From the NCBI GenBank assembly GCA_021730935.1, contig JAKFYJ010000018.1:1-64000 (forward strand): a stretch of 64,000 nucleotides of DNA, given 5' to 3'. Of the stretch, positions 6,706 to 23,735 are shown in pieces (the first letter of the stretch is position 1; each line of letters starts with the position of its first letter). Under the pieces are notes generated by a model. It did not search any database, had not been told where the DNA came from, and saw only the letters and a program-made list of their open reading frames with translations. The position numbers were made by a program, and so were the translations under genes. The stretch comes from Elusimicrobiota bacterium. GTDB lineage: Bacteria > Elusimicrobiota > Elusimicrobia > 2-02-FULL-39-32.

Positions 6706-6712
6706 GGAACGG

Positions 6713-7059
6713 TGGAGGTGGCGGGAATTGAACCCGCGTCCGAAAACGCGACCGTCAAGCCACTACAAGCTTAGCCTGGTATTGATCTCGCCGCGGGGTT
6801 GTCACCAGACAGAACCACCCAACGACAAGCCCGACTGTTGTTTCACCAAAATGCCGCCAGGCGGAGCATTTACGGCTAACCTGCTGTCGACATTCGACCC
6901 CAAATAGCAGGTGTCAATGGGCGAATGTCACTGCGGTTTAGGCAGCGAGCGCCAGTTCTTCGTTGGCGTTTCTATTGGGTCGATTTTTACGGAGCCTTCG
7001 ACCAACTCCGGCTTGCGGCTGTGGCGTTCAAACGTCTCCGTCGAAGCCATTTCACCCCC
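6713..7059 (-). ncRNA. ssrA: tmRNA
   Basis: 5' GGGGGTGAAATGGCTTCGACGG and 3' GGACGCGGGTTCAATTCCCGCCACCTCCA on minus strand, G3:U in acceptor; tag ORF ends ...ANEELALAA* (stop at 6938-6940). Confidence 0.95.
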
Positions 7060-10269: not shown

Positions 10270-10328
10270 TTTATTTTAAAAGAACTTTTTTGTCAAATTT
10301 TGTAAAATAAGCCGAAAGATTTTCAAAA

Positions 10329-10400
10329 CGGGGCATGGCGAAGTGGCATCGCGCTCGGTTCGGGACCGAGAGGCCGTGGGTTCAAATCCCACTGCCCCGA
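10329..10400 (+). tRNA. tRNA-Pro(CGG)
   Basis: Acceptor CGGGGCA/TGCCCCG, anticodon arm CTCGG-TTCGGGA-CCGAG, T arm GTGGGTTCAAATCCCAC. Confidence 0.92.
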
Positions 10401-10542
10401 AACAGTTTCATTATCAACACAAGGATTTGAAGCGAGTGAGCGCCGAGCAAGTGCGAGGAAAAGGCCGCTGGCCGGAAGCGAACGAGGGGAGGCTACGCAG
10501 CGAGCCCTGCGAGCGTAGTGGCCAAATCCCACTGCCCCGAAA
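10383..10542 (+). repeat. tRNA-Pro 3'-end direct repeat flanking a structured cassette
   Basis: CAAATCCCACTGCCCCGAAA at 10383-10402 repeated exactly at 10523-10542; internal inverted repeats between. Confidence 0.85.
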
Positions 10543-10561
10543 ATTTTATTCTCCCATATCC

Positions 10562-11443
10562 ATGAAAGCAACTCTCGTTACTCTCACCCTGCTCATAAGC
10601 GCATCGTGTTATGCCGCTCCCGCGGCAATTCAACCTTCAATTAAAACCTGGGAAGAAGGAGCGGCCCTCGTCATGGGGCAGGTCATAGAAAATAATCACG
10701 GCTGTGAGACCGATGGAGTCTGTTATTTAATCTTGCGGATTGATAATAAAGAAGTGCGGGTATATTACAATCTGGGCGAAGGGGAACGATGCTTCAATGA
10801 TCAATCCAAACTCGCTTGGCACATAAATAAAGGAGATTGGATAAAAGCCTTTGGCGATTACACGCTAAGAAAAGATATTTATTTTGTTTCCGCATGTTCG
10901 TCCCCCCGATACTTCATCCGCAGAGCAGACGATGGCACGCCTCTTGAACCCGTCACTGAACGGTTTTTACAAGAAGTCGCAAAACGGAAAACTGATATTG
11001 CAAAAAAGCAATTTGAAGAAACAAAACAAAGCGGAGCCTGGAAGACGCATGCGAACAAACAACTTGGATATGAGTTCAGATATCCCGCGACTTGGTCAGA
11101 ACCGGACAGGATGATGGGAGATGAAGTTTTCTCAATCTATTATCAGGACCATTCGCTTAAAAATGGTTATGCGGCAAGCTTAACCCTTGGTTTCATTTCC
11201 GAAGCTCAGATTGCGCTGATGGGAATAGATTTTTGCGATGCCAACCCCGACGACAAACGCTGCGAGAGAAAGAAAATCGGCAATGTTTCGGCGGCAATAG
11301 ATTGGGGAGACAATGATAAATTTGCGTTCGCAAAGATCCCGCGTCCGGCAGGAGGTTTTGTCACTTTCACTCTGAAACCGAACACATCGAAAGCAAAATC
11401 ACTTTTTATTCCTATCCTCGAAACATTTAAATTTCTAAATTAA
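10562..11443 (+). CDS. secreted hypothetical protein
   Basis: ATG at 10562 gives signal peptide MKATLVTLTLLISASCYAAPA; the upstream part of the track ORF reads through tRNA and repeat. Confidence 0.65.
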   Translation: MKATLVTLTLLISASCYAAPAAIQPSIKTWEEGAALVMGQVIENNHGCETDGVCYLILRIDNKEVRVYYNLGEGERCFNDQSKLAWHINKGDWIKAFGDYTLRKDIYFVSACSSPRYFIRRADDGTPLEPVTERFLQEVAKRKTDIAKKQFEETKQSGAWKTHANKQLGYEFRYPATWSEPDRMMGDEVFSIYYQDHSLKNGYAASLTLGFISEAQIALMGIDFCDANPDDKRCERKKIGNVSAAIDWGDNDKFAFAKIPRPAGGFVTFTLKPNTSKAKSLFIPILETFKFLN

Positions 11444-23645: not shown

Positions 23646-23728
23646 ATCTTCGGTAACCAGACGATCCCTCCCCCAAGGGACTCACGGCTTTGCGTGTCTG
23701 CGATTACTCGCTGACTTGCCTTTTTCGG
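23646..23728 (-). ncRNA. GEMM-I (cyclic di-GMP-I) riboswitch
   Basis: Minus strand GGCAA-GTC-A-GCGA-GTAA-TCGC-A-GAC-ACGCAAA-GCC (GNRA tetraloop) ... GTCCCT/AGGGAT ... GGTTACCG. Confidence 0.9.
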
Positions 23729-23735
23729 ATGCTTT

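Follow-up and report, generated by a model that had tools for sequence, protein, structure and literature searches.

Tiny folded repeats behind bacterial tRNA and tmRNA genes, with ends that follow the adjoining gene

The tDNA islands, elements with a tyrosine integrase as collected in Islander (PMC4383910), have tRNA and tmRNA genes as their targets, leave the gene intact and are accompanied by a displaced copy of its 3' part. The short repeat described in this study, located behind a tRNA-Pro gene in a window of 64,000 nucleotides (the whole stretch of DNA that was analysed), resembles these islands in the intact tRNA gene and in the displaced 3' copy, the repeat running from the T-loop to the 3' end. 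However, its body measures only about 110 nt and contains neither an integrase nor any other gene, a single family of bodies occurs on many tRNA types with ends that match the target, and an extra inverted copy of the T-arm is present. Integron attC sites end in the heptamers RYYYAAC and GTTRRRY and are recombined by IntI. With these sites and the cassette arrays the element shares 7-nt inverted boxes around a folded region, a head-to-tail arrangement and a fixed insertion point, but its heptamer tracks the T-arm (CRANYCC) rather than GTTRRRY, no attI or integron integrase was seen (in a generic PF00589 search), and its units are normally geneless. The folded attP of CTX phage and IMEX is recombined by the host XerCD. 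These likewise lack a recombinase of their own and use a folded single strand as recombination site, as the present element may do, but their target is dif and not a tRNA, and CTX is a phage genome.

REP/BIME sequences with their RAYT (Y1_Tnp) are also short, folded, intergenic repeats that are possibly moved in trans, whereas the present element is longer, bound to tRNA genes and provided with direct repeats, and many of its carriers lack Y1_Tnp. It is short and non-autonomous as MITEs are, with inverted ends and a target duplication, but MITEs have ends of transposon type and a duplication of fixed length, whereas here the ends copy the target, the duplication is variable (18 nt and more), and a parent transposon was not found. 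The CsrA sponge RNAs of the CsrB/RsmY type contain repeated GGA-loop hairpins, which are also seen in copies from Spirochaetota and Nitrospinota; however, the element is tied to tRNA genes, and GGA loops are absent from the copies labelled Omnitrophota, including that of the window (the label stands for the phylum of the window genome, a probable assignment from the names of its nearest relatives). Retroelements differ in that a reverse transcriptase is missing from most carriers tested. No known family fits by its defining features, and a conserved fold with a closing helix that tracks the adjacent tRNA, across 14 or more amino-acid types and three distant phyla, is seemingly undescribed. No Rfam 15 family matched the element in the window and 10 relatives, in which gathering score was reached by tRNA, tmRNA and a riboswitch far from the element alone, and no published description was found in the openly licensed PMC literature, of which the coverage was not exhaustive. 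This family of tiny folded repeats, present in at least three bacterial phyla, is apparently undescribed.

I propose, with a probability of roughly 0.6, that the repeat in the window is one copy of a short non-autonomous mobile family that integrates at the 3' ends of tRNA and tmRNA genes. It has the appearance of a mobile element without an enzyme of its own because both ends copy whichever tRNA adjoins. A first-pass annotation of the window had noted that the end of tRNA-Pro recurs exactly, and indeed the 20 nt CAAATCCCACTGCCCCGAAA occur exactly twice in the window, on the + strand at 10383-10402 and 10523-10542, with zero matches in 100 shuffles. The pairings that it had listed, GGATTTG (10423-10429) with CAAATCC (10523-10529), CTACGC with GCGTAG, and GGCC-GCT-GGCC, are located where it had placed them. 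Missing from these were the main long helix P2 (10433-10442 with 10477-10486) and the hairpin H1, and it is the strands of P2 and H1 that account for the remarked richness in GCGAG and GAGCG (Table 1).

Table 1. Parts of the tRNA-Pro locus, in positions of the window
Feature	Position	Strand	Basis
tRNA-Pro(CGG), intact target gene	10329..10400	+	ARAGORN; Rfam RF00005, 68 bits
A, left direct-repeat copy: T-loop C56 to A73, plus AA	10383..10402	+	sequence
t, spacer between tRNA and element	10403..10422	+	alignment; part common to the tRNA-Ser copy
A' GGATTTG, inverted tRNA T-arm 3' strand = P1 5' strand	10423..10429	+	covaries with the local tRNA
Folded element in full, from A' through the body into the A copy	10423..10529	+	R1 89.4 bits, R2 72.2 bits
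P2 5' strand CGAGTGAGCG, two tandem G.A pairs	10433..10442	+	
H1 hairpin, CCGAGC 10443-10448 / GCGAGG 10453-10458	10443..10458	+	
H2 hairpin, GGCC-GCT-GGCC	10463..10473	+	
P2 3' strand AGCGAACGAG	10477..10486	+	
H3 hairpin, CTACGC 10493-10498 / GCGTAG 10513-10518	10493..10518	+	outer H3 pairs covary
A copy, right direct-repeat copy (tRNA 3' part); first 7 nt = P1 3' strand	10523..10542	+	

A search of the window's own genome (2.7 Mb in 96 contigs), as the annotation had suggested, revealed one more locus, on contig 9. This copy is located behind tRNA-Ser(GCT), and its body is 88% identical over 92 nt to that of the tRNA-Pro copy; however, it is flanked by the 3' end of the serine tRNA, CAAATCCCTCCTCCTCCGA, and not by the proline end. 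The body is common to both loci while the ends are those of the local tRNA, which is the central clue to the nature of the repeat. A unique local duplication without wider meaning can practically be dismissed, since it is refuted by this second copy and by the family in three phyla. Two sister species share the ndk/tRNA-Pro neighbourhood but are without the element there, and model R2 (see below) found no copy in these two species or in six family members. An exact empty site for the window copy is lacking because the downstream flanks of the sister species differ.

A pattern scan of public genomes yielded copies in records of Spirochaetes, Omnitrophica and Nitrospinota, mostly directly 3' of tRNA-Pro, tRNA-Ser or tRNA-Val and with the tRNA end repeated. 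A covariance model (R1) was built from 12 sequences and retrained as R2; the seed of R1 contained GGATTTG, and the other heptamers that were later recovered lay outside this seed pattern. With R1, 25/342 genomes from the phylum of the window and 54/298 Spirochaetota genomes were found to contain the family, the genomes of the pattern hits having up to 17 copies each, and R2 detects it in 11 of 24 Nitrospinota genomes (up to 18 copies per genome). Five genomes with chance matches to the pattern (Sphingomonas, Chloroflexi, Nocardia, Bdellovibrionales and Hyphomicrobiales) showed zero element matches under the model, as did a Bdellovibrionaceae genome. A similarity search of phage and plasmid collections returned no element, the sole matches being the tRNA itself in Caulobacter phages, and viral contigs gave many chance matches to the motif, none of which was strongly confirmed by the covariance model. 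The occurrence in three phyla agrees with the tentative mention, in the first-pass annotation, of GCGAG-rich tails behind tRNAs of other genomes.

For the analysis of placement and covariation, 130 copies were aligned. Of these, 88 copies in 30 genomes follow a same-strand tRNA at a distance of at most 160 nt, and the tRNAs concerned represent 25 anticodon types. The spacer between tRNA and element is most commonly 48-60 nt long, and 10-30 nt in several copies labelled Omnitrophota. Most of the other aligned copies occupy a contig end or the second or third place in an array, and many copies initially scored as lacking a tRNA adjoin tmRNA genes, which share the tRNA-type T-arm and acceptor ending. 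Copies next to tmRNA include L452, L073/L256, L254, L253, L251 and L252, and in both that were inspected (L452 and L073) the 3' end of the tmRNA is repeated. Among the held-out Nitrospinota copies, a tRNA is located within 160 nt in 18 of 24 cases, and a further two copies form a tandem behind one tmRNA. Three suggestions had been made for the repeat, and the non-autonomous tRNA-targeting element is the best supported, with its body behind tRNA-Ser and 25 anticodons and with local 3' ends; an integration remnant alone is at odds with the conserved fold and the tandem arrays, and a tRNA-tail RNA is the less probable third.

The order of a unit is intact tRNA (with A as its 3' half), spacer, A', folded body and A copy, with a folded body of ~100 nt in an element of about 107-120 nt. 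The A copy starts at C56 of the T-loop and runs to the 3' end of the tRNA, and A' is an inverted copy of the local T-arm strand. At the variable positions 57, 59 and 63-72 the A copy equals its own tRNA in 75-92% of cases, versus 28-45% for tRNAs of other types; A' complements its own tRNA in 93-99% at positions 57 and 59 and in 80-85% at 63-64 (25-46% for other tRNAs), and the match weakens towards the acceptor end. Terminal heptamers including CAAATCC, CGAATCC, CAAGTCC, CGAGTCC, CAATTCC, CGAACCC, CGACTCC, CGATTCC, CAATCCC and CGATCCC were all found paired with their matching inverse. Outside arrays, the last base of a direct repeat usually coincides with the 3' end of the tRNA. The spacer often forms a hairpin that resembles an intrinsic terminator, as in most Spirochaetota copies, and A, spacer and A' together often constitute one long palindrome.

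The common fold has P1, formed by A' and the A copy, around P2, which in turn encloses H1 and H2, and H3 separates P2 from the P1 3' strand. Tandem G.A pairs of the CGAG/CGAG type occur in P2 and H1 and are elsewhere replaced by Watson-Crick pairs (C-G/G-C for H1 in relatives). Covariation, the absence of which the annotation had named as an argument against such an element, is strong: in the 130 sequences 801 cells are doubly changed versus 277 after shuffling, and the covariation score is 0.423 versus 0.125, helices that were slid reaching at most 0.054. For 61 distinct held-out copies, the corresponding values are 505 versus 158 and 0.625 versus 0.152; alignments fitted to a model are biased towards that model, but the values from sliding and shuffling are nonetheless far off. 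Support for the fold comes from comparison of the copies, as thermodynamics alone singles out nothing at the window locus, neither as RNA (10403-10542, z = -0.25) nor as DNA (10423-10529, z = +0.78). By its G.A pairs, which would become C.T on the other strand, the tRNA-sense strand is indicated as the one that folds. G-U pairs make up 0.9-1.9% of the paired cells in the body helices versus 7.6% in the tRNA stems of the same loci, and this scarcity leans towards folding at the DNA level, although it does not decide between DNA and RNA since G-U exceeds A-C in the held-out copies (22 versus 7).

Alternatively, the body could be a resident regulatory RNA that is transcribed behind the tRNA and, in Spirochaetota and Nitrospinota, binds CsrA by the GGA loops of H2 and H3 and acts as a sponge; arrays would then add CsrA sites, and A' could pair with either the tRNA 3' strand or the A copy and so form a switch. 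I consider this unlikely, even though the strong covariation would be expected of such an RNA and the loops are suggestive. The H2 and H3 loops in these two phyla often read CAGGATG or CAGGAAG and resemble CsrA sites, being near the CsrA-binding consensus. Loops of the type CA(N)GGA(N)G are found in most of these copies, two GGA loops are present in 53/94 copies versus 18/94 shuffles, and CsrA is encoded in all 25 of the Spirochaetota and Nitrospinota carriers tested. Accordant with this, the Omnitrophota-labelled copies have no GGA loops, and 7 of 8 tested carriers have no CsrA. However, this contrast follows whole phyla and may be a coincidence, and one genome (G013) is CsrA-positive yet without GGA loop. 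The window spacer contains no terminator hairpin between tRNA-Pro and the body, but such a hairpin does separate the two in most Spirochaetota copies. The rarity of G-U pairs in the body also speaks against an RNA, and neither the spread of the body among tRNA types nor the repeated tRNA 3' end is explained by it. A predicted CsrA-binding role in the host is a lead, confounded with phylum.

Several observations bear on movement. In one genome (G355), the copies behind tRNA-Pro and tRNA-Met are 98% identical over 65 nt from inside A', while spacers and A' differ, and the switch in the flanks falls at the A' border. In the pair G346/G348, each genome has one filled and one empty site, tRNA-Ser(tga) and tRNA-Ser(cga) being occupied in opposite genomes, with direct repeats of 27 nt and 18 nt at the filled sites. 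In single-contig genomes, as many as five nearly identical units follow each other head to tail. The filled and empty pairs may also represent loss by recombination between the repeats, and this belongs to another explanation, in which an old insertion is now immobile, its bodies homogenised by gene conversion, its ends kept by quasipalindrome correction and its copies lost through the direct repeats. Tandem duplication would account for the arrays, and some copies are orthologous, several being 98% alike in sister genomes behind the same tRNA. I regard such a passive repeat as improbable, however, as its patchiness in three distant phyla and the lack of copies in the genomes closest to that of the window would need many losses or transfers, and the tandem G.A mismatches have been retained uncorrected. 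The patchiness across the three phyla, together with the exchange of bodies between tRNA types, speaks for gains as well.

The recombinase search was made with the generic PF00589 only. Tyrosine recombinases are encoded in 18/18 carriers, one of which has only two with 8 copies of the element, but this is weak evidence as they are near-universal (14/14 control genomes). The data are compatible with a tyrosine recombinase supplied in trans; no copy with its own recombinase, as an autonomous relative, was seen. A copy labelled Omnitrophota near a Y1_Tnp gene prompted consideration of RAYT as partner, which was ruled out: many carriers are without Y1_Tnp (RAYT, IS200-type), among them 12 of 17 Spirochaetota carriers tested, including single-contig genomes with multiple copies. 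The copy L265 (G326:C6) has no tRNA upstream and a RAYT-like Y1_Tnp gene about 250 nt away; its tRNA may have been lost, as its 3' copy ends in GTCAGCCACCA. A reverse transcriptase was rejected as partner as well, RVT_1 being present in only 3 of 18 carriers and absent from the other 15, including single-contig genomes with 7-12 copies. This also makes it very improbable that the duplicate and the inverted copy arose through a tRNA-precursor RNA, for instance by reverse transcription self-primed from the terminator hairpin, although the long palindrome of A, spacer and A' and the direct repeats ending at tRNA or transcript-like 3' ends would suit such an origin.

Gene cargo was seen at one locus (G349:C91, copies L177 / L259), where a gene for an MNT-type nucleotidyltransferase and a HEPN-like partner, the latter assigned by eye, are enclosed by two copies with 94% identity, the second of which contains the start of a PD-(D/E)XK (Rpn-like) gene. 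A general gene-cassette system is unsupported, as most other copies without upstream tRNA adjoin tmRNA instead.

Returning to the non-autonomous mobile family, a recombinase supplied in trans would act on the T-arm and recognise a site to which the folded strand contributes, and the inverted A' would be a second recognition half-site. Insertion would rebuild the 3' end of the tRNA and push the old end downstream, as in the larger tDNA islands, and A' could be kept matched to the target if it is copied when insertion takes place or converted afterwards with the hairpin as template. The working mode would resemble that of an integron attC or of the folded attachment site in phages of the CTX type, with insertion at the T-arm, although membership of these systems is not claimed. 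A simple carry-over of attP, however, leaves unexplained how the body acquires a new A' and a new A when it is on a different type of tRNA. This counts against the mobile reading, as do the failure to find an autonomous relative or an enzyme and the lack of element matches in phage and plasmid collections, and copying at insertion followed by decay is unsupported because the length of the A' match is not correlated with the identity of the A copy. I tentatively extend the proposal to a new kind of minimal mobile element, with a folded body that, moved in trans, enters the T-arm of any gene for a tRNA or tmRNA, the element gaining inverted and direct copies of each target; the T-arm would be a near-universal dock across phyla, and in phyla with CsrA the elements may also be CsrA-binding RNAs. 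Should the family be mobile, it would constitute an integrating unit of very small size for which any T-arm is a near-universal target, and the enzyme behind it would be a new tool; should it instead be an RNA, it would couple tRNA transcription to CsrA control.

For annotation, arrays of the element yield false tRNA-antisense open reading frames and are located at contig ends in draft genomes. No open reading frame belongs to the 107-nt element of the window, and the long ones that run across tRNA and element, at 10323-10571 (-) and 10343-11443 (+), are antisense or read-through artefacts. Peptides from such reading frames probably contaminate protein databases. The window further contains a tmRNA gene at 6711-7059 (-) with the tag ANEELALAA, behind which the window genome has no element, and a c-di-GMP-I riboswitch at 23649-23730 (-), with 48.6 bits.
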